Virus record (IMG/VR): IMGVR_UViG_3300029787_005125
Coordinates: 1-55,280 of that record
Source of the DNA: a virus
Length of the DNA stretch: 55,280 bases
Reading direction: 5' to 3' (one strand)
Shown one piece after another: positions 36,216-47,771 of this stretch. The notes under the pieces are model-generated. The model was not told the DNA's origin, made no database searches, and was given only the letters and a program-made list of their open reading frames with translations. A program made the translations under genes and the position numbers. The stretch's first letter is position 1; the number at the start of each line of letters is the position of its first letter.

Positions 36216-37006
36216 GGCAATACCTGTTTAACAAAGTTCCCCTCAGCATCTATTAACATTTCATTTTCGTTTCTGTAGGGGAAATCAGAAATTGGTCGGG
36301 TCTTATCAAACCCCGTAAATGGACGACATATGTCGGGAACATACTTTGTTTTTACATTGATAGTTTTTAAATATTCCTCCCATAAGTGCTCAGTACAAAC
36401 AAAATTGTTATCTGTTCGATTAGGGTCTTCACCATCAAGATACTTAAATGAACAATATTTTTCAAAAGTAGCCGGATTCGATAGAGCAAAGAAGCACAAA
36501 TCTCTATGCCCCGAAGGAGTAAACCTCGTGCTGTATATGACATCATCTGGGTACTGTAGCGCTGTGAGGCTTAAAGATTTCGGAAACATTGAATTATCTG
36601 GTCGGCATCTTACGATTACATCATACCGAAAGTTGTTTTCTTCAGCATAGCTTTTAGCTAACGAAAACCCATGACCAATGTTATCAATTTGATTTTGCAT
36701 CCTTGTTCTAAAGTAACCTAAAGTGCCAAAATTTTCATCGGGAAGATTTTCATCATTATCAATAACAAGTTGCTTAAGATGATCGCCGTATATATTGGTT
36801 AAGCTATCAGTTATCTCATCGTTAGTGTAGGTGTTAGTTAAATAATATTTCTGCTCTAAAGATTTACCACAAGAATGAAGTGTATTTTTAGAGGAAATAT
36901 ATGCGAAAACATCTGCTTTGTTTGGCTCTATCAGGTGCTTCATGTGATTGCGCCAATTAACTTTATAATCTCTTAACTGTCCAGTTATTAATACTGCTGT
37001 TTTCAT
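36212..37006 (-). CDS. glycosyltransferase-like protein (LITGQLR family)
   Basis: A 264-residue protein beginning KTAVLITGQLRDYKVNW, then ADVFAYIS, and further on YDVIVRCRPDN, a strand ending in an Arg-x-Asp motif like the DxD region of GT-A folds. Proteins of this pattern occur in capsule and lipopolysaccharide loci, some labelled WavE-like. A sugar-transfer role is likely but unproven. The protein at 40886-41713 has the same layout (ILLRG, CDVFFHTW, YDLVVMIRFDV) and is probably a distant paralogue. I chose the ATG at 37006 because AAGGAG lies five bases upstream and ATGA overlaps the preceding stop; a longer frame starting at 37033 has no such support. Confidence 0.7.
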   Translation of the reverse strand: MKTAVLITGQLRDYKVNWRNHMKHLIEPNKADVFAYISSKNTLHSCGKSLEQKYYLTNTYTNDEITDSLTNIYGDHLKQLVIDNDENLPDENFGTLGYFRTRMQNQIDNIGHGFSLAKSYAEENNFRYDVIVRCRPDNSMFPKSLSLTALQYPDDVIYSTRFTPSGHRDLCFFALSNPATFEKYCSFKYLDGEDPNRTDNNFVCTEHLWEEYLKTINVKTKYVPDICRPFTGFDKTRPISDFPYRNENEMLIDAEGNFVKQVLP

Positions 37007-38094
37007 GCTTTCTCCTTTTGATGCTTTAGCCATTCAGATTGGGTTTGTATGTCTTGCATTATAGGACCCGGGGGTGGTGTGGATATCGGAAAAGAACTTA
37101 ACAATAACTTTAATGGTATTGGGGATTCTTCAGAAGTTCTCTGCAACAGGAACTCGTGAAGGTGCGTCTGAAGCCATTGCGGTTGCGAAACTATAACATT
37201 CCACCTATTATCAAATGGATAATCTCTTATTTTGTTTTTATCTTTAGATTTAGTAAAAACATAACGATTAGTAGTATAGAGAATTCCGCCGTCTTTTATA
37301 TTAGTTTGAAACCAAGAGAAATATGATTCTAAAGTTTTGCGAGGCATCTCCCCAAACGATCTGGTATTAATAACCAGCTCACATTCCATTTGGACTGACT
37401 CATATGCGCCATATGGAATAAGTAACACATCACACTCTACGTCGTCTACATGACAATTAATGTTTTCAGTTCCTAAAAGGCTTACAATTTTGCAATCCGG
37501 AACAACATTGCTTAAATAGTAGTGCTGTGTTAACAGGACCTCGGGGAGATCCACAATTATATATTTTGCATTTTTATACATTTTTTTTATCTTGCTCGCC
37601 AAATTGCCATATCCGGCGCCGATTTCTAAAACATTCTTAAGTTGCTTCTTATGAAACAGAAAATCAATCATTCGCTTTATTTGCCAAGCCGAATATACAT
37701 GATACAGGTCATCAAAATTCAACAAATACGTTTTATCTTGAAACTCGTGTGCGTATCTTCTTGGATTACCAATGTTTGTATTAAACGGAACTACTTCTAA
37801 ATCATCCTTCATCATGATTACCAACTCATTAAACCGTGATACTAGCTCTTTAATTTCCAGGTCATTATAATTCACATCATAATTCTTGCCGGATAGTGCT
37901 AAATCCCTTTCCTGTGATGGTAACGCTGTCTCCAACATATTACTAATACCGTTTGTACGAAACGAATCCATAGATCTATAATCACTTACTTTATGATAAT
38001 ACAAATCACCAAATACGTCCCAATGATCTTGAGAGCTATAATTTGTGTTTTTAATTTTATCTAAGTAATTTTGATAGTCCGATTCACTCAACAC
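37003..38094 (-). CDS. putative sugar O-methyltransferase
   Basis: A 363-residue protein. The C-terminal part is a SAM-dependent methyltransferase with motif I EIGAGYGNLASKIK and acidic DLPEVL at the end of strand 2. The N-terminal 130 residues (DHWDVFGDLYY, then NMLETALPSQERDL) match what I know of the putative sugar O-methyltransferase family found in O-antigen and capsule loci. It would cap or decorate a sugar in the glycan. The start is a GTG at 38094 with only a weak ribosome site, five bases after the upstream stop. A TTG in the next codon is possible. The ATGA overlap couples it to the next gene. Confidence 0.8.
   Translation of the reverse strand: MLSESDYQNYLDKIKNTNYSSQDHWDVFGDLYYHKVSDYRSMDSFRTNGISNMLETALPSQERDLALSGKNYDVNYNDLEIKELVSRFNELVIMMKDDLEVVPFNTNIGNPRRYAHEFQDKTYLLNFDDLYHVYSAWQIKRMIDFLFHKKQLKNVLEIGAGYGNLASKIKKMYKNAKYIIVDLPEVLLTQHYYLSNVVPDCKIVSLLGTENINCHVDDVECDVLLIPYGAYESVQMECELVINTRSFGEMPRKTLESYFSWFQTNIKDGGILYTTNRYVFTKSKDKNKIRDYPFDNRWNVIVSQPQWLQTHLHEFLLQRTSEESPIPLKLLLSSFPISTPPPGPIMQDIQTQSEWLKHQKEKA
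37012..37017 (-). promoter_or_regulatory. ribosome binding site deciding the start at 37006
   Basis: AAGGAG on the minus strand, five bases before the ATG at 37006, within the end of the preceding gene. It argues for this ATG over a longer frame. Confidence 0.75.
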
Positions 38095-38099
38095 GATAA

Positions 38100-38786
38100 T
38101 TAAACTTTCAAACCAGTGGCTAAGCCGTCATCCCTAAATTGCTGCACCGCCTTCAGACCAGCTTCAGCTGGGTCATCTTGAAGCCTATGCAATCTCTTAA
38201 GCACCGAATCTGGAACTGTGACGATATCGGCGCCTTGAAGTTCTGCTTCCAACACGTTATATACTGTTCTGCAAGCGGCCCACAAAATCTTAACATTAGG
38301 ATAGTCAGAAAAGGACTTTGAGGCATACTTAACAAGATTTTCGGAATTCACGCCGCAATCGTTCAATCTTCCGGCAAAAATAGAAACAATGACATCTGTG
38401 TTCAAACCAAAGCAATCTTTTATTGAATGCACCTGTTTCTCGGTAAAAATAGCTGTCACGTTAACCTTAACTCCCTTATCGTGAAGTTTTTTAATGACCG
38501 CTGCATTTGAGCTACCATCTGTTTTGATCACAGGAATTTTTACCAATATTGAGGGGTCAAACGAAGTTATCGCAACTGCGACTCTTTCTATGTCTTCATC
38601 ATTGTCATCGTATAGCTGAAATGAGATGGGTCGCCCCTTTGAGTATTGGAGGCAGTGTCTGATAAACTCAGGATAATCAGTCACGCCGGCGCTTCTTAAA
38701 AAGGAAATGTTTGTGGTAAACCCTTTTACATCATTTCCGGAGTTGTTCTCTATATCGGTACCATCATAATATATTTCTATCTTCAT
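38100..38786 (-). CDS. transaldolase / fructose-6-phosphate aldolase-like enzyme
   Basis: A 228-residue protein of the small transaldolase family (class I aldolase, Schiff-base). It has the early KGFTTNISFLRSAG (family GVTTNPS), the catalytic lysine strand ILVKIPV with Lys83, VNVTAIFTEKQV, and SIFAGRLNDCG (family FVGRLDD). The phosphate-site segment SFKTP is replaced by AACRTV, so the substrate may differ from fructose-6-phosphate. Cyanophage TalC belongs to this family and acts in central metabolism, but here the gene is inside a glycan cluster and next to the nucleotidyltransferase fusion. I infer a role in making an unusual sugar or polyol precursor; a metabolic role cannot be excluded. 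Confidence 0.82.
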   Translation of the reverse strand: MKIEIYYDGTDIENNSGNDVKGFTTNISFLRSAGVTDYPEFIRHCLQYSKGRPISFQLYDDNDEDIERVAVAITSFDPSILVKIPVIKTDGSSNAAVIKKLHDKGVKVNVTAIFTEKQVHSIKDCFGLNTDVIVSIFAGRLNDCGVNSENLVKYASKSFSDYPNVKILWAACRTVYNVLEAELQGADIVTVPDSVLKRLHRLQDDPAEAGLKAVQQFRDDGLATGLKV

Positions 38787-38797
38787 TGTATTGTCCT

Positions 38798-40870
38798 CTA
38801 ATCATTTAATCTGTGAATGTGATTCAGCCAGTTAATTGCCATAATCATGGCGTATATCCCATGCCCCTCGTTAATTTGCCTTCTAAAAGGAATAAAACGA
38901 ATAAAATACATTGACATGTAAAAAATACCTTTTTTATAAACTTCAAGCCAGTCTTCAACATCCATTATAATAGCATATTGTTGACAAATATTTTCATAGT
39001 CTTTTATGTTGCAATTAAAATATTCGGGAGTGCACGTTAAATTGTTGATGTCTTTGTTTAATAAAGGATTGTCAATAATATTCCACTCTCTATAGTTCGA
39101 AACTATCGATTGAAATATTTTGCCAAGATCAAAATAGCATGTATCCACAAACCGGCTGCCGTCAAGATCTATAAGCTTAAAATCTTGAAAAGTTTCATTA
39201 TACAGTATATTCTCAAGCGTTAAATCTCCATGTATGGGGCTGAGATATTCAGTGTTAAAATTATATATATTTAAATCTTCTATTACTTTCCTTAGTCCAG
39301 AGTACTGCTTACCGTTTACCACAACCGTATCTTGGTTTATCAGATGTTTCATCACCTCACACTCGTTTTCATAAAGCACTAATTTAGGCTCTATTTTCGT
39401 GTTATAGAATGTCTCCATAAACTCTAGGCTAGTATTCTTCTTCCTATAACAATATACATTATTGTGTAACTTGGTAACCACTTTTTCTAGAACCCTGTTC
39501 CTCTCCAGATCTCCGAACTCGTCCAGCTGTTTATAATTTTCGAGATATTCCATGTCGAAATAAAACCAGTGGTCATTATCTTCAGAATTTAAAATTTTTG
39601 GAACAAGTGTGTCATCATAATATTTAAGCCTCTGAAGATCACTCAACTGTCTTTTCAGTTTTTCATAGTGCTCGTATGTCGCCTGGTTTTTAACAATATA
39701 CTTTCTAACAAAGTATTTGCCGTTATTGCTAACAAGAACGGTTTTGCTAAAAGAATTTCCCTTAAATGTCTCGATGACTTCTAAGTCATAATTTCCGCTT
39801 TCATTGAGATCAATATCATCTATGCCCGCGTCTCTAGTTAGATTTATAGACAAGGACTGGCGCACCAGCGGATTAGAAGGCTTTAGATCATTAATCAAAT
39901 AACGAGGACCTGGATTAAGACCCATTACCAGCCTATCATATTCAATCCCAAGCTTCTGGAGCATTGCCTCGAACGTCTTCCTAGTCCTACGAGGTCGCGC
40001 AGTAGACAACACAACCAACTTATCTTTGGATCTCCATTCTTGTATTTTTTTTGCAGCATCATTAATAACAAAATTGTCCTCCACAATATCATTTGAACAC
40101 CCTTTGTGCCTAAGGAGAACCCCATCAACATCACAAATTATTGTTGCCTTTTTTCTTCTCTCTTCGATAGCTTTCTTTGCCATTTTTGGGTCACCAAAAA
40201 AATAAGCAGTTTTAATTTTAGCCAACTCTACATTAAGATCTTTATGATTCTTGCTAAAAAATTGGGAAAAATGTAATAAGTCGCAGGGACTATTTTGTAT
40301 CTGTTCGGAAGATTTAAAATAATAACAACCGATGATCCCTCTAGCTACTGCTTCACTAGTATTCACAAATGGCTGTTTTTCACTAAAGTTAACAATGGAC
40401 TCACTAGACGGATTAACTATTATCTTTCCCCAATTTTTATGTTCATTGGGATGTATGTCCCAAGTGGGTATTACTATGTCAACACACGGATTGTCCCCAA
40501 CCTTTTCAATCATTGGACGTATATCCACATAGTGATCACAATCACACACTATAATTTTACTAAGTGCCCCCAATTTCTTCAGACCTAATTGAATTGTCTG
40601 GAATGGTCCCTCTGTTTGCTTATCGATCAGTACTACGTTTATTTTTTTACTGAGGTGGGGGAATAGGCGCTCTTTTAAAGTTTTAGATACTTGATTGGAG
40701 GACTCTTGATCGCGCCTAACTATAAAATTATAGCTGTCAACTTCAACATTGCTGAAGCTGTCAAGAACATGCTCTATAAAAACTCTGTTGTCTAAATTTA
40801 AGAAGGGCTTAAAATTGTAATCAAATCGCGAGCTTTTACCAGCCATTGGTATTATAATATTAAATGACAC
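38798..40870 (-). CDS. trifunctional nucleotidyltransferase - HAD phosphatase - sugar/choline-type kinase
   Basis: A 690-residue fusion. Residues about 1-235 are a nucleotidyltransferase: IIPMAGKSSRF with Gly11 and Arg15, Lys21 and DCD (Asp110, Asp112). Residues about 240-335 are a capsule-type HAD phosphatase: Asp247-x-Asp249 in CDVDG, Thr290 in LSTAR and Asp328 in INDLKP. Residues about 380-690 are a choline/aminoglycoside kinase-type domain: His547-Gly-Asp549, Asn554 and Asp568/Asp570 in LIDLDG. All three active sites look intact. The combination suggests that one protein phosphorylates, trims and CMP- or NMP-activates a small alcohol or sugar. The start is a GTG at 40870. It follows 15 bases after its upstream neighbour. 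Confidence 0.85.
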   Translation of the reverse strand: MSFNIIIPMAGKSSRFDYNFKPFLNLDNRVFIEHVLDSFSNVEVDSYNFIVRRDQESSNQVSKTLKERLFPHLSKKINVVLIDKQTEGPFQTIQLGLKKLGALSKIIVCDCDHYVDIRPMIEKVGDNPCVDIVIPTWDIHPNEHKNWGKIIVNPSSESIVNFSEKQPFVNTSEAVARGIIGCYYFKSSEQIQNSPCDLLHFSQFFSKNHKDLNVELAKIKTAYFFGDPKMAKKAIEERRKKATIICDVDGVLLRHKGCSNDIVEDNFVINDAAKKIQEWRSKDKLVVLSTARPRRTRKTFEAMLQKLGIEYDRLVMGLNPGPRYLINDLKPSNPLVRQSLSINLTRDAGIDDIDLNESGNYDLEVIETFKGNSFSKTVLVSNNGKYFVRKYIVKNQATYEHYEKLKRQLSDLQRLKYYDDTLVPKILNSEDNDHWFYFDMEYLENYKQLDEFGDLERNRVLEKVVTKLHNNVYCYRKKNTSLEFMETFYNTKIEPKLVLYENECEVMKHLINQDTVVVNGKQYSGLRKVIEDLNIYNFNTEYLSPIHGDLTLENILYNETFQDFKLIDLDGSRFVDTCYFDLGKIFQSIVSNYREWNIIDNPLLNKDINNLTCTPEYFNCNIKDYENICQQYAIIMDVEDWLEVYKKGIFYMSMYFIRFIPFRRQINEGHGIYAMIMAINWLNHIHRLND

Positions 40871-43239: not shown

Positions 43240-44109
43240 CTATAGCTCTCTTTCTTTCATATATTCTGGCTCTACAGAATCTCTACAGGTTTTACAGAAA
43301 CCCTCTTTAGGTCCATCCTCCTTGTGGTGGTCCCGCCATGGTCTGTACTTATCACTCATGTATATATCCCATAGCTTTCCCTCGCTAACATGTCCCATGA
43401 TGCCACTTTCTTGACCTGGGACATCTGAGCGCAGGGCGCAGCAAACCATCACAGAGCCGTTAAAATCAATGTACATGTTCTGAGATACTTGAAGACATTT
43501 CTGCGTTCTTGTGTAAGCAGAGGCAATCTGGACGGTGTCTCCTCTGCTTGATCCATCCTTGTCGAAATTTCTTGAACGTATGTGTATTGTCATGCCCCTA
43601 TACGAGAGGTCGTATTCCAACTTGCAATCCTCGATATCGGTGATTATTTTAGCTGGGAGATCAAGCTTCTTTATTTTCTTTTGTGCTCGCTTGCGCATTT
43701 TTTCATGATTGTACCTCTCATTATTCCCTAGATATTGCTGAATCCATAGCTGATTGAAACCGGCATCACATAACTCTTCCACATAATCTCTGGTTATATA
43801 ATCACCATTTGTGTTAGTTCTTAATATAGCTTTGGGCAGCGCCTCACGGGCTTGTTTGATTCTTTTTATAAAAAGCTCTCTTTTCGCAGTTGGTTCGTTA
43901 TATCGACTGTAAGTAAGTTCACCAGAAAAATCTACTTCCCTTAACTGCGATATCAAGTCTAAATAAACCTCCTCTGGCATGATTTTATTATCTGATATTC
44001 TGTCCACAAATGAATTTGGACAAAACCAGCACTTCCTATTACAATAAGAAAATGTCTCAATCTCAATGAGTTTAAGATTTTCTTTAAAAATTTCTTTATT
44101 TGTTTTCAT
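43240..44109 (-). CDS. radical SAM enzyme with SPASM-like C-terminus
   Basis: A 289-residue protein. Cys23-x3-Cys27-x2-Cys30 (CNRKCWFC) is the radical SAM cluster motif. A later set of cysteines (CLQVS, then MVCCALRSDV, then FCKTC) fits an auxiliary SPASM-type iron-sulfur site. Many such enzymes modify peptides or carbohydrates through radical chemistry. A separate short precursor peptide was not seen nearby, and its neighbours are a methyltransferase and a glycosyltransferase, so a sugar is the more likely target (for example epimerisation, dehydration or C-methylation). It shares an ATGA overlap with the next gene. No specific reaction can be assigned from sequence. Confidence 0.85.
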   Translation of the reverse strand: MKTNKEIFKENLKLIEIETFSYCNRKCWFCPNSFVDRISDNKIMPEEVYLDLISQLREVDFSGELTYSRYNEPTAKRELFIKRIKQAREALPKAILRTNTNGDYITRDYVEELCDAGFNQLWIQQYLGNNERYNHEKMRKRAQKKIKKLDLPAKIITDIEDCKLEYDLSYRGMTIHIRSRNFDKDGSSRGDTVQIASAYTRTQKCLQVSQNMYIDFNGSVMVCCALRSDVPGQESGIMGHVSEGKLWDIYMSDKYRPWRDHHKEDGPKEGFCKTCRDSVEPEYMKEREL

Positions 44110-45050
44110 CTATCTAACATTCCTCTAATAGTTGCAACGAGTTCATCAGCCCTATGAGACCATCGGCAATTGTCATGAAAAAACGTCTTTGCATTTTCAA
44201 CTATTGTTCTTCTATCTTTATCATTATTTAAATAAAAACTTAACTTATCATTAAAGTCTGTTAAGTCATTACTAAATTCAACACAATTAACTCCATCTTT
44301 AAAAATATCACGATACTCAGACGGTATCTTTTGACAAAACAAAAGCGTGCCCGTGGCAGCAACTTCATAGTATCTTGGTGTTATGTCCCCAAAAGCTGCT
44401 TGAGTCGCTATCCATATCTTTGATTTATTTATGGTTTTTGAATATTCCTCATAACTTGGTATTCTAGCCGGCCGGGAATCACTTGAACTCCAAAAAACTT
44501 TAATTTTGTCGTTTTTAGTTAGAATATCTCCTATTTTGGTGCGTATGTTTTCCACCGGGAACGCACCAGTTGGGTAGTGTTTATTTTCGTGCAAGGCTCC
44601 GGAAAAGCCAATATCATATTCTTTTTCCATCTTTCTATCAAAAAATACAGATTGATCAAATCCGTAAGGAAATAACTTGGTTTTTATTCCGGTAACTTTT
44701 TCAATCTTTTTTGTTCCGGGGACCGGAGTTAAAATTTGATCTATTTTATTAATTTTACAAAAATTTAGTTTTTCCTTTAATTCATTTTGTGGTTTAAATA
44801 ATACGCAAATAGATGGAATACTCATGCCTGACAGGCGACCAAAATATTTATGGTTAAACCAACCTAACCCAAATATAATTACATCAGGGCTAAAATTACT
44901 TTGAGTTATTAGGTGCTCAATATTATGTGGTACACCTCGATGTAACATCACACTATGGTCTCGCGCTAGTTGATCGTATACCCCGTCATAATATTTATAA
45001 TTACTGGACGTCCCTGTTTGTACCACAGGGTCTACATACAGAATCTTCAT
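44106..45050 (-). CDS. CgeB/GT4-like glycosyltransferase
   Basis: A 314-residue GT-B-type protein. The N-terminal domain begins MKILYVDPVVQTG. The C-terminal domain has DIGFSGALHENKHYP and, near residue 225, ITPRYYEVAATGTLLFCQKI, the nucleotide-binding helix with Glu followed by a Gly loop that is characteristic of CgeB-like and GT4 transferases. No signal or membrane segment is present. It would transfer a sugar from an NDP donor to a soluble acceptor; donor and linkage are unknown. Both ends overlap neighbours (ATGA junctions), so it is tightly coupled to the radical SAM gene downstream. Confidence 0.8.
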   Translation of the reverse strand: MKILYVDPVVQTGTSSNYKYYDGVYDQLARDHSVMLHRGVPHNIEHLITQSNFSPDVIIFGLGWFNHKYFGRLSGMSIPSICVLFKPQNELKEKLNFCKINKIDQILTPVPGTKKIEKVTGIKTKLFPYGFDQSVFFDRKMEKEYDIGFSGALHENKHYPTGAFPVENIRTKIGDILTKNDKIKVFWSSSDSRPARIPSYEEYSKTINKSKIWIATQAAFGDITPRYYEVAATGTLLFCQKIPSEYRDIFKDGVNCVEFSNDLTDFNDKLSFYLNNDKDRRTIVENAKTFFHDNCRWSHRADELVATIRGMLDR

Positions 45051-45949
45051 CTGCTTAAATCCTTGACTCCTGGTGCCATGTCCTGGAGTTTTCTAAATTT
45101 TCCTTGGTTGTGAATTCCATTCACTACTAAATTGTAGTCATATATCACTGGCTGAACCATGTGCGCAAAAATAGAAATTATTTCGTTGTCCCCCCACCGA
45201 TACTTGTAAACACCTCCATCGTTATTGACAGCGGTTATCCATTTTTGCCATAACTCCGTCTTGAACATTTCAGTTTTTATAACGTATGTATCACACCAAT
45301 TCAAGTAGTGGAAATTCCAATCAGCGTTTTTATCAAGCAATAGTTTCTTTAAAGGTTGGGATTTTGGAATCACCCTATTGTTTATTAGAAAATTTTTAGT
45401 GAACTCCCATAGTCCAACTCTGGTGTCTAAGTGACCTTGATGGGGCGTTCCATTTTTTAATCTTTGACCAACAAAATACGCCCCCATAAAATATTCCGTC
45501 TCGCTCAACACTCTAAACGGGTCATAGGACATTTCCTCTTCATACCCTGATTCATCATCATGGGTCATAATGTAGTCATATTGTGACAATTCGGTATTCT
45601 CATAACCATACATGTTGCTAGTAAAATTGCACATATGTAGGTAACCCTTACGTTGCACAGAAAAGTTATTCTGCACGTACCATAGGTTTTTTCTGTTGTG
45701 GTAGAGTTCCTCTTCTTTTAGAAATGGTGGAGTTTCATACGGAACAGATTTAAAGATCACATTTTGCGGTGAGCATGCCTCTTTTACCTCGCTCCTAAAG
45801 GAATCATTGTCATAAATGTCATCAAAATAATGCACGTATACAGGGTAATTGTATTTATTATTATAATTTTCCCACAAAGATGCTAGTGAATGCTTAATGC
45901 ACTTACTTCGCGAAGATATGTATACTATGCATGCATTTAAATCATTCAT
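45047..45949 (-). CDS. GT15-like (mannosyltransferase family) glycosyltransferase
   Basis: A 300-residue protein. The opening NACIVYISSRSKCIKHSLASL and the middle YLHMCNFTSNMYGYEN then YDYIMTHDDESGY then YDPFRVL follow the order of family 15 alpha-mannosyltransferases (YRHMCRFNSG, then YDYYWRVEPDV, then YDPF). The acidic HDDESG stretch would be the metal-binding site. In yeasts, GT15 enzymes (Kre2/Mnt1) act on glycoproteins, with a signal anchor; this copy lacks the anchor. The family is unusual for a phage. The donor could be GDP-mannose, shared with the gmd branch, but that is inference. The resemblance is judged by eye. Confidence 0.7.
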   Translation of the reverse strand: MNDLNACIVYISSRSKCIKHSLASLWENYNNKYNYPVYVHYFDDIYDNDSFRSEVKEACSPQNVIFKSVPYETPPFLKEEELYHNRKNLWYVQNNFSVQRKGYLHMCNFTSNMYGYENTELSQYDYIMTHDDESGYEEEMSYDPFRVLSETEYFMGAYFVGQRLKNGTPHQGHLDTRVGLWEFTKNFLINNRVIPKSQPLKKLLLDKNADWNFHYLNWCDTYVIKTEMFKTELWQKWITAVNNDGGVYKYRWGDNEIISIFAHMVQPVIYDYNLVVNGIHNQGKFRKLQDMAPGVKDLSR

Positions 45950-45961
45950 AATTATTTCTCA

Positions 45962-46969
45962 CTAATAATACTTGACATCACAAGCCTCATATATTTCGTC
46001 TATCAATTCTAACACATTTTTAGTTTCTATTAAATTGAACTCTTCTAGTCTACTGTACAATACAGGGTGGTTGGGGCATGACCCGGCATATCCCCCATAT
46101 GAGTTTGGCGTGCCTACAGAATTATTAGTAGCTACTAATTTTTCAATTGTCTCTTGTTGAGCTGGGTCCAAAAAGTTTAACTCTTCAAACACATTCATGG
46201 CTTTGCCCCCAAGTTTAATAAATCCGGAATCTGTCATCAAAGACAAGCTACACTCAAGATTTTTTGGCTCACAAGATATTGTTACTTCTGCATTCCCCCC
46301 ATAATCACCAAAATCTAACATGGCATATACAGTATCTTCTATATCTACTGTTTTATGTTTAGTATTATATTTTTTCGCTGCCGCAACACTTGGTTTGCCA
46401 AGTAAATAACACAGAATATCTAAGTAATGTATTCCACACTCATGCAAAATACCGCCCCCAACTTTGGGCTGACCTCTCCAATCATAAAAATATTCTTTTG
46501 GCCTCTGCCATCTTTGGACTAAGCTGAAGCCTCTTACGTTTCCAACAAGATTGTTGTCCAATAGGTATTTTAGGTTTTGGATACAAGAATTTAATCTAAC
46601 TTGTAGAACTGCATACACATTTTGTTGGCAACTTTCGGCATAAGAAACTAAATCATCTATCTGTTTTGGGTCTAAAGTTGCGGGCTTTTCTATCAAAACG
46701 TCGCACCCATTTTGTAAACAAAATATTGCCTGTTCATAATGTTGAGAGTTAGGAGTTGCGATGACTATAAAATCAACTCCAGTTTGTAGTACCATTTGTT
46801 TATAATCCGTAAATGAACTCACAGTCAACCGATTCTTTTTTTGATCTAAAACCTGTTGATCGGTGTCACATATTGCAACTAGTTCGTATTCCTCATTGGC
46901 TTCAACTGCCTCCAGATGTCTTGGAAAAATCATTCCACATCCTATGATGCCTACTTTTTTACTCTTCAT
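45962..46969 (-). CDS. Gfo/Idh/MocA-family oxidoreductase
   Basis: A 335-residue NAD(P)-dependent dehydrogenase. The N-terminal Rossmann motif is KVGIIGCGMIFPRHLEAV, followed by VIATPNSQHYEQA and the catalytic EKPATLD (Lys in EKP). GGGILHECGIHYLDILCYL supplies the conserved substrate-site His. These enzymes oxidise or reduce nucleotide sugars or inositols. The pairing with a DegT aminotransferase gene immediately before it resembles WlbA/WlbE-like steps that make 3-amino sugars. I take the ATG at 46969 as start because GAGAGGG lies five bases upstream. An upstream TTG at 46996 is less likely, as it lies inside the aminotransferase gene. Confidence 0.9.
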   Translation of the reverse strand: MKSKKVGIIGCGMIFPRHLEAVEANEEYELVAICDTDQQVLDQKKNRLTVSSFTDYKQMVLQTGVDFIVIATPNSQHYEQAIFCLQNGCDVLIEKPATLDPKQIDDLVSYAESCQQNVYAVLQVRLNSCIQNLKYLLDNNLVGNVRGFSLVQRWQRPKEYFYDWRGQPKVGGGILHECGIHYLDILCYLLGKPSVAAAKKYNTKHKTVDIEDTVYAMLDFGDYGGNAEVTISCEPKNLECSLSLMTDSGFIKLGGKAMNVFEELNFLDPAQQETIEKLVATNNSVGTPNSYGGYAGSCPNHPVLYSRLEEFNLIETKNVLELIDEIYEACDVKYY

Positions 46970-47771
46970 AGGTTCCCTCTCTGATTGATTTGGCAACCTT
47001 TTCGGCTATTGGGCAATTACCCCTGATACCTTTTCTAATGTAATAAGGTTGCTCGTAAACAACGTTTGGATAATGCCCTGCACTTGGACCTCGGAGTCCA
47101 AGTTCTGCTTTGATTCCATTCATGTGGAGTTTCATCTGTTCATAAGCCATCAGGCATAGTGGTTCTGCTAATCTAAAATTAAATCCAAGATATTCATGGT
47201 TATACCTTCCAACCTGTCCTTGGTCGCAAATAGATCTGATTTTTTTACTGTCTAGCTTACTGCCTTTTGGAATACAAATCATGCCTCCTTCAAATGTTGA
47301 TATATTTTTTGTTTTATAAAAACTAAAAGCACCTACATCTGACATCATGCCAGCAGGCTTACCACGGTGGCAGGTTGCTCCAAAGGCTTGTGCAGTGTCT
47401 TCTAAAACAACTAGATTATGTCTTTCAGCGATTTCATTAATTTTTTCCATATTACATACGCGACCATATAGATGCACAGGCATTATGGCCTTTGTTTTTT
47501 GTGTAATAGCTTGTTCAATTTTGTTTTCATCAATCAAAAGTGTTTCTGGATTAATATCAACAAATACTGGTTTTGCGCCTGCAATTAATATTGCATTTGA
47601 GGTCGCTATAAAAGTAAATGGCGTTGTTATAACTTCATCGTCTGGCTCCAGATCCATTGACCACAGAGGGGCAATCAGGGCACTAGTGCCGTTATTTACA
47701 GCTATACAATCTTCTAAATTAAAAGTTTCTTTAACATAATCTTCAAATATATTTCTAATAATTACTGGCAT
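46959..47771 (-). CDS. compact DegT/DnrJ/EryC1-type sugar aminotransferase
   Basis: A 270-residue PLP enzyme. Motifs include NGTSALIAPLWSMDLEPDDE, TTPFTFIATSNA, GAKPVFVDINPE, MPVHLYGRVCNM, EDTAQAFGA with Asp125, and FYKTKNISTFEGGMI with the PLP lysine at Lys155. The family usually has 360-400 residues. Here the N-terminal first segment is short, and about 60-80 residues of the small C-terminal domain are missing, though the end (HYPNVVYEQPYYIRKG, then CPIAEKVAKSI) resembles the family terminus. Core catalysis could persist or be impaired. It would make an amino sugar with the following oxidoreductase, with which it overlaps by 11 bases. Confidence 0.82.
   Translation of the reverse strand: MPVIIRNIFEDYVKETFNLEDCIAVNNGTSALIAPLWSMDLEPDDEVITTPFTFIATSNAILIAGAKPVFVDINPETLLIDENKIEQAITQKTKAIMPVHLYGRVCNMEKINEIAERHNLVVLEDTAQAFGATCHRGKPAGMMSDVGAFSFYKTKNISTFEGGMICIPKGSKLDSKKIRSICDQGQVGRYNHEYLGFNFRLAEPLCLMAYEQMKLHMNGIKAELGLRGPSAGHYPNVVYEQPYYIRKGIRGNCPIAEKVAKSIREGTYEE
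46975..46980 (-). promoter_or_regulatory. ribosome binding site deciding the start at 46969
   Basis: AGAGGG on the minus strand, five bases before the ATG at 46969, inside the end of the aminotransferase gene. Confidence 0.65.

Follow-up and report, generated by a model that had tools for sequence, protein, structure and literature searches.

An aldolase adjoining a nucleotidyltransferase-phosphatase-kinase fusion: a putative two-protein nucleotide-sugar module in a phage glycan cluster

Nucleotide-sugar pathways fed by an aldolase are already known. In lincosamide GDP-octose biosynthesis, LmbR extends ribose 5-phosphate, and the product is then isomerised by LmbN, phosphorylated by LmbP, trimmed by LmbK and activated by the guanylyltransferase LmbO (PMC4351081, PMC5854111). 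GmhA, GmhB, HddA and a nucleotidyltransferase (NTase) constitute the gene set for synthesis of nucleoside diphosphate (NDP)-heptoses, including GDP-heptose (PMC10680097), and the MupP-AmgK-MurU route of N-acetylmuramic acid (MurNAc) recycling combines a HAD phosphatase, an anomeric sugar kinase and a GlmU-like NTase (PMC5371407). Here we analysed a virus record of 55,280 bases (IMGVR_UViG_3300029787_005125; hereafter the window) in which a transaldolase-like aldolase lies beside a single polypeptide with predicted NTase, HAD phosphatase and kinase domains. Our comparisons support the view that the aldolase and the fusion are a conserved functional pair within glycan clusters, both in phages and in a small number of bacteria; what appears to be new is the compaction of the pathway into two proteins with an unusual aldolase subclass.

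The glycan genes of the window form a minus-strand run at about 32.6-52.8 kb. Within this run, the fusion (38798..40870; 690 aa, GTG start) is upstream in transcription and is separated by 11 bases from the aldolase (38100..38786; 228 aa, ATG start). A ribosome-binding-like AGAGGA precedes the aldolase ATG, and only a weak one precedes the fusion GTG. Domain 1 of the fusion (aa 1-240; 40151..40870) is a predicted sugar-1-phosphate NTase matching Pfam PF12804 (E 8.6e-10). Domain 2 (aa 241-356; 39803..40150) is a capless HAD phosphatase of the PNKP-3'-phosphatase-like type with DVDG, TAR and ND motifs, which matches phrog_415 (6.6e-5) and is 31-37% identical to stand-alone phage HADs. Domain 3 (aa 357-690; 38798..39802) is a predicted APH-fold small-molecule kinase with the motifs HGDLTLEN and LIDLDG.

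Each of the described systems resembles this locus in part. As in the LmbR-LmbN-LmbP-LmbK-LmbO series, a transaldolase-family enzyme would lengthen a sugar, followed by a kinase, a phosphatase and an NTase. The window differs in that a single polypeptide combines the last three activities, the pair lacks an adjacent isomerase and residues of the aldolase have changed, and its setting is a phage glycan cluster rather than an antibiotic cluster. With the GDP-heptose module the locus shares the kinase-phosphatase-NTase order, and TIGR02134 aldolases adjoin GmhA/GmhB/HddA-like genes in viruses and plasmids. In the window, however, the kinase has an APH/methylthioribose (MTR)-kinase fold instead of a GHMP fold, the phosphatase is a PNKP-like capless HAD instead of a HAD-IIIA GmhB, all three are fused, and GmhA, the sedoheptulose-7-phosphate isomerase, has no counterpart in the cluster. 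AmgK has the APH fold, and the MupP-AmgK-MurU combination of a HAD phosphatase, an APH-fold sugar kinase and a GlmU/RmlA-fold NTase recurs in the fusion, whereas those proteins are encoded by separate genes and act on MurNAc, to which nothing in the window sequence points.

Closer in genomic terms, Synechococcus phage S-SRM01 and Bacillus phage G (gp311-310-309) carry the same three activities as neighbouring genes, but these are split or otherwise fused and have no aldolase alongside. In phage G (L014:4965-7394), gp311, which has no annotation, is an APH-like relative of the fusion kinase and lies beside a HAD and an RmlA-like NTase. In S-SRM01 (L009:3897-6309), a KpsF-like isomerase accompanies an NTase-kinase fusion annotated as 'NDP-sugar synthase' and a HAD annotated as '3' phosphatase'; this set, which lies beside fucosyltransferase genes, is a probable NDP-pentose set.

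The strongest evidence for a functional pair comes from its recurrence. Fusions were gathered through kinase-domain relatives in viral contigs and then with full-length fusion alignments in genome and viral contigs, yielding 24 distinct three-domain fusions from viruses and bacteria at 85% clustering. When either the fusion or the aldolase was used as a single query sequence, the viral and genome contigs returned no matches, so that alignments were required, and the plasmids scanned held no fusion relative. Because the aldolase was not used in the searches, its adjacency is not built into the collection. An aldolase is nevertheless found within 1.5 kb on the same strand in 22 of the 24 fusions, mostly overlapping or at distances up to 26 bp, and beside 18 of the 20 fusions with both flanks present. 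By comparison, none of 41 distinct split NTase-HAD genes (without a fused kinase) has an aldolase beside it (Fisher p 2e-15 for 22/24 versus 0/41, on related and hence non-independent sequences). The exceptions are a Prochlorococcus genome fusion (L247), with a KdsD-like isomerase 2.3 kb away, and two near-identical loci from Actinomycetota metagenome-assembled genomes (MAGs).

Phages of at least two groups have the pair, as do MAGs of Legionellales, Planctomycetaceae, Myxococcales, Kofleriaceae and Alphaproteobacteria, and the bacterial copies also sit in polysaccharide-type loci. The partner aldolases occupy several places in the aldolase tree; one of these is a deep branch (L168-L173, L244), closer to TIGR00875. 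Since the aldolase occurs on either side of the fusion and comes from more than one lineage, its linkage to the fusion appears to be under selection. The activities are also divided differently beside an aldolase, as HAD - aldolase - [NTase-kinase] in viral loci L269 and L024 and as aldolase - [HAD-kinase] - NTase in viral locus L059, arrangements that would be hard to explain except by a shared pathway. The literature library searched, which was incomplete, yielded no account of the pair or of a trifunctional protein of this kind.

An earlier note on this DNA had drawn attention to these two genes, describing an aldolase with an intact Schiff-base lysine and an altered phosphate-site segment and, 11 bases upstream in transcription, a three-domain protein whose active-site residues all appeared intact. 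Its coordinates are exact and its description of both proteins is borne out here. It had also made co-location in other genomes the test of its idea, and on the pairing it was right.

Among 11 members of the fusion family, the motifs of all three domains are invariant: G11..R15, K21, D110/D112 and K165 in the NTase; D247xD249G, T290 and N327D328 in the HAD; and R389K390, E441, H547GD549..N554 and D568 in the kinase, the last comprising the Brenner HGD..N motif and downstream Asp of APH/MTR-kinase-like enzymes. Structure prediction, which the earlier note had suggested, gave an AlphaFold model of the 690-aa fusion with a mean predicted local distance difference test score (pLDDT) of 82 and a predicted TM-score (pTM) of 0.53. 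In this model the N-terminal domain matches RmlA, GlmU and UDP-glucose pyrophosphorylases (UGPases; Foldseek, RmlA E 2.2e-11, prob 1.00). Modelled alone, the kinase domain reached pLDDT 91 and pTM 0.89 and matched 5-methylthioribose kinase (4.2e-8), fructosamine-3-kinase (1e-7) and N-acetylhexosamine 1-kinase (NahK; 2.3e-7), all ranked ahead of protein kinases. Of these, methylthioribose kinase and NahK transfer phosphate to the anomeric oxygen of their sugar substrates. In their folds the three domains match what a sugar kinase, a phosphatase and a sugar-1-phosphate NTase would be predicted to show. In sequence searches, Pfam APH fell below its cut-off for the window kinase and above it in L169, phmmer of the fusion against PDB gave a marginal NTase match only, and a MurU profile had no match to the window NTase.

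Two further arrangements were also observed. In marine virus AG-345-E15 (L012:4394-6251), a kinase open reading frame (ORF) overlaps an NTase-HAD fusion ORF, and this split form is much commoner than the three-domain form. In a faecal contig from a phage collection (L013:3964-5973), a relative of the kinase domain forms the C-terminus of a longer ORF, the N-terminal half of which resembles a multi-pass membrane protein.

The window aldolase belongs to the Pfam TAL_FSA family (E 2.4e-23). The nearest named family is the S. aureus-type transaldolase TIGR02134 (E 9.5e-56; 34-41% identity), but the score of the window enzyme, 189.1 bits, lies under the equivalog cut-off of 281.95. The fusion-partner aldolases of bacterial loci L240 (321.5 bits) and L241 (301.4 bits) do exceed this cut-off. 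Schiff-base Lys83 (in VKIPV), Asp8, Asn26, Asn109 and Thr111 are conserved in the window aldolase. The phosphate-site segment reads WAACRT where relatives have WAS(P/C)RE; thus Ala171 replaces the Ser aligned to that of AASIRH in TalC (3r8r), and Arg173 is kept. The earlier note overlooked a second change, Gln57 at the catalytic-water position, which is Glu in transaldolases (3s0c has Glu and 4xz9 has Gln in this column). This position helps organise the catalytic water, and laboratory swaps interconvert transaldolase and fructose-6-phosphate aldolase (FSA) activity (PMC13259622). The window aldolase has the counterpart of FSA Gln59 but Phe, not Tyr, at the Tyr131 column, and it scores 62 bits against the FSA family (TIGR00875; cut-off 245.95). 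By its residues the window type is a natural hybrid, with Gln as in FSA, Phe as in transaldolases and an altered phosphate shell.

These substitutions define a subclass. All 77 distinct ordinary TIGR02134-type aldolases share the catalytic-water Glu, the phosphate-site Ser and Arg, and the Pro and Leu that follow the TTN motif. By contrast, the fusion-linked aldolases that include the window enzyme, which we call Q-type, have Gln for Glu in all 18 distinct sequences and Gly or Ala for Ser in all 17 readable ones, with Arg changed to Gln in 13 of those 17 and the Pro replaced in most; the window enzyme retains the Arg that most of its Q-type relatives have lost. The catalytic Lys, Asp, Asn and Thr are unchanged throughout. 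The combined shift of Glu to Gln and Ser to Gly or Ala therefore suggests that the Q-type subclass has a different acceptor from other TIGR02134-type aldolases. We discarded the notion that a Q-type aldolase always lies downstream of the fusion, as it is upstream in L266 and L267.

Related viral aldolases of the TIGR02134 type also keep company with sugar-activation genes. Forty-three of 49 distinct sequences have, no more than 5 kb away, a gene for at least one of three proteins: a GmhA-like SIS, a GmhB-like HAD and an HddA-like GHMP kinase. SIS and GHMP kinase are both present beside 37, and four have none of these neighbours. The complete set of GmhA, GmhB, HddA, NTase and aldolase genes is present on Lawsonia and Rhizobium plasmids. 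Taken singly, the SIS, HAD and kinase matches score under their equivalog cut-offs, which leaves room for a sugar other than a heptose. From this context, TIGR02134-type aldolases in viral contigs appear to be mostly nucleotide-sugar pathway genes rather than pentose-phosphate auxiliaries. A widespread operon in viral contigs (L016-L095), SIS - (GmhB) - TIGR02134 aldolase - GHMP kinase, is apparently a complete aldolase-fed heptose-like pathway.

We propose that the aldolase and the fusion probably constitute a compact, aldolase-fed nucleotide-sugar module of two proteins, a reading based on their intact folds and motifs, their conserved adjacency, their recurrence in several architectures and the residue shift of the aldolase subclass. 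The aldolase would form a carbon-carbon bond by Schiff-base chemistry, using an acceptor that may be unphosphorylated or phosphorylated elsewhere and yielding a ketose or ketose phosphate, which a host isomerase would convert if an aldose is required. The APH-fold kinase domain of the fusion would then phosphorylate the anomeric (C1) hydroxyl, the HAD domain would remove the distal phosphate and the RmlA-like domain would couple the sugar-1-phosphate to a nucleotide. This order would follow HddA, GmhB and HddC; alternatively, dephosphorylation may come first, as in MupP, AmgK and MurU (PMC5371407). The resulting NDP-sugar would feed glycosyltransferases of the same phage cluster. Read in this way, the pair alters the interpretation of a class of viral 'transaldolase' genes and adds a recurrent trifunctional sugar-activation enzyme whose fixed partner displays a natural Glu to Gln plus Ser to Gly/Ala shift.

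Several observations weigh against this proposal. No ketose-aldose isomerase was found in the window cluster, with no SIS among the annotated ORFs or by profile, and SIS genes lie near only two of the 24 fusions compared with 41 of the 49 viral TIGR02134-type aldolases; this points either to a GmhA-like activity supplied by the host, or to a product that requires no isomerisation or a different pathway. No domain of the three attains a family-specific (equivalog) cut-off. As the kinase fold matches have TM-scores of only about 0.5 and a kinase profile search against PDB gave only insignificant matches, to protein kinases, a sugar is the inferred substrate class of this domain. The pair is rare in bacteria (1/284, 1/294 and 1/41 genomes in the groups sampled), leaving no cultured reference, and some IMG/VR contigs and MAGs may hold misbinned DNA. 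The earlier note had interpreted the pair as a self-contained branch making and activating a polyol or short sugar, and this interpretation is partly supported: conserved pairing and the kinase, phosphatase and NTase folds favour a sugar-making and sugar-activating branch, while 'self-contained' is unsupported given the missing isomerase, and 'polyol' given the evidence considered below.

A bolder version of the module, to which we assign a low though appreciable probability, is that the Q-type aldolase and the fusion make a nucleotide sugar of a new kind with no isomerase step. The aldolase, as a hybrid of FSA and transaldolase whose phosphate site has been dismantled, would join a C2 or C3 donor to an acceptor that is non-standard and perhaps unphosphorylated. 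Its product, either an aldose (with glycolaldehyde as the donor) or a ketose that is itself activated, would be phosphorylated and nucleotide-activated directly by the fusion. If so, phages would gain a sugar absent from the repertoire of their hosts.

The lack of a nearby isomerase at most fusions would also fit a product that is phosphorylated, trimmed and cytidylylated without isomerisation, as in a CDP-polyol type of branch, and CDP-6-fructose/CDP-glucitol provides a precedent for an activated non-aldose (PMC10918830). We consider such a branch unlikely, as no conserved polyol-type reductase lies beside the pair, and the IspD profile match to the fusion NTase is weak (E 0.004) whereas the CDP-glucitol enzymes belong to PF01128 (IspD) and the best fold matches are to sugar-1-phosphate NTases. 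Membership in the CDP-glucitol or CDP-mannitol pathway was dropped because its enzymes are IspD-type with a short-chain dehydrogenase/reductase (SDR) (PMC10918830).

Pentose salvage, with an NDP-pentose (NDP-arabinose, for example) as the product of the fusion and only an interconversion of pentose phosphates by the aldolase, draws on the KpsF/KdsD-type isomerases near the kinase/NTase/HAD set in S-SRM01, where the run is KpsF-like - [NTase+kinase] - HAD, and in Prochlorococcus AG-402-C09, as well as on the aldolase-free L247 fusion with its KdsD-like neighbour. It is improbable for the pair, however, given that 22 of the 24 fusions keep the aldolase and KpsF-type isomerases are rare beside them, and that arabinose 5-phosphate requires no Schiff-base aldolase.

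Phage transaldolases are usually read as TalC-type auxiliaries that boost the host pentose-phosphate pathway (e.g., PMC5082946, PMC3037559), in which case the position of the window aldolase beside the fusion would be incidental. The fold is the same, and cyanophage TalC is 26-33% identical to the window aldolase over about 90% of its length. Yet five cyanophage TalCs retain the Glu, Ser and Arg, the first two of which are replaced in the window type; their neighbours are psbA, ribonucleotide reductase, tRNA, glutaredoxin or DNA maturase genes, and the NTase, HAD, kinase, SIS and GHMP profiles match nothing within 5 kb; and the window aldolase type is locked to the fusion. We therefore regard this explanation as very unlikely, in line with the alternative that the earlier note had offered to it. 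Scant probability attaches to a role of the NDP-sugar in modifying phage DNA bases, a use proposed for pentosylated cytosine in RB69 and Thanatos, instead of in a surface glycan: phages do make NDP-pentoses for DNA (PMC12838424) and the phage G kinase-HAD-NTase genes lie between genes annotated as glucosyl transferases, but glycosyltransferase, GDP-mannose dehydratase, aminotransferase, methyltransferase and Gfo/Idh genes lie within about 18 kb of the window pair, and the bacterial copies have polysaccharide-type surroundings.

Directly downstream of the window aldolase is a gene for a 363-aa S-adenosylmethionine (SAM) methyltransferase (37003..38094, minus strand; PF00891, 1.3e-5). In L250 (phmmer 291 bits) and L160 (264 bits) a homologue of this gene directly precedes the fusion, which makes it a possible accessory of the aldolase/fusion module. 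In the Legionellales MAG (L240:9273-18698), the pair is followed by genes for a GmhA-like SIS, a Gfo/Idh protein, a 2-hydroxyacid dehydrogenase, an SDR and an AroB-related sugar-phosphate cyclase, the last matching TIGR04425 with 392 bits, just below the cut-off of 400. Elsewhere the window encodes a T4-type baseplate wedge, PhoH and nuclease genes. Its glycan cluster includes a radical SAM enzyme with a SPASM domain (43240-44109, minus strand), and the ORF at 45047-45949 (minus strand) matches Pfam Glyco_transf_15 (E 2e-18), a glycolipid 2-alpha-mannosyltransferase family known mainly from fungi. A Gfo/Idh/MocA dehydrogenase ORF with a TTG start (45962-46996, minus strand) overlaps a DegT aminotransferase ORF (46959-47771, minus strand) whose N-terminus looks short, the two forming a typical amino-sugar pair.

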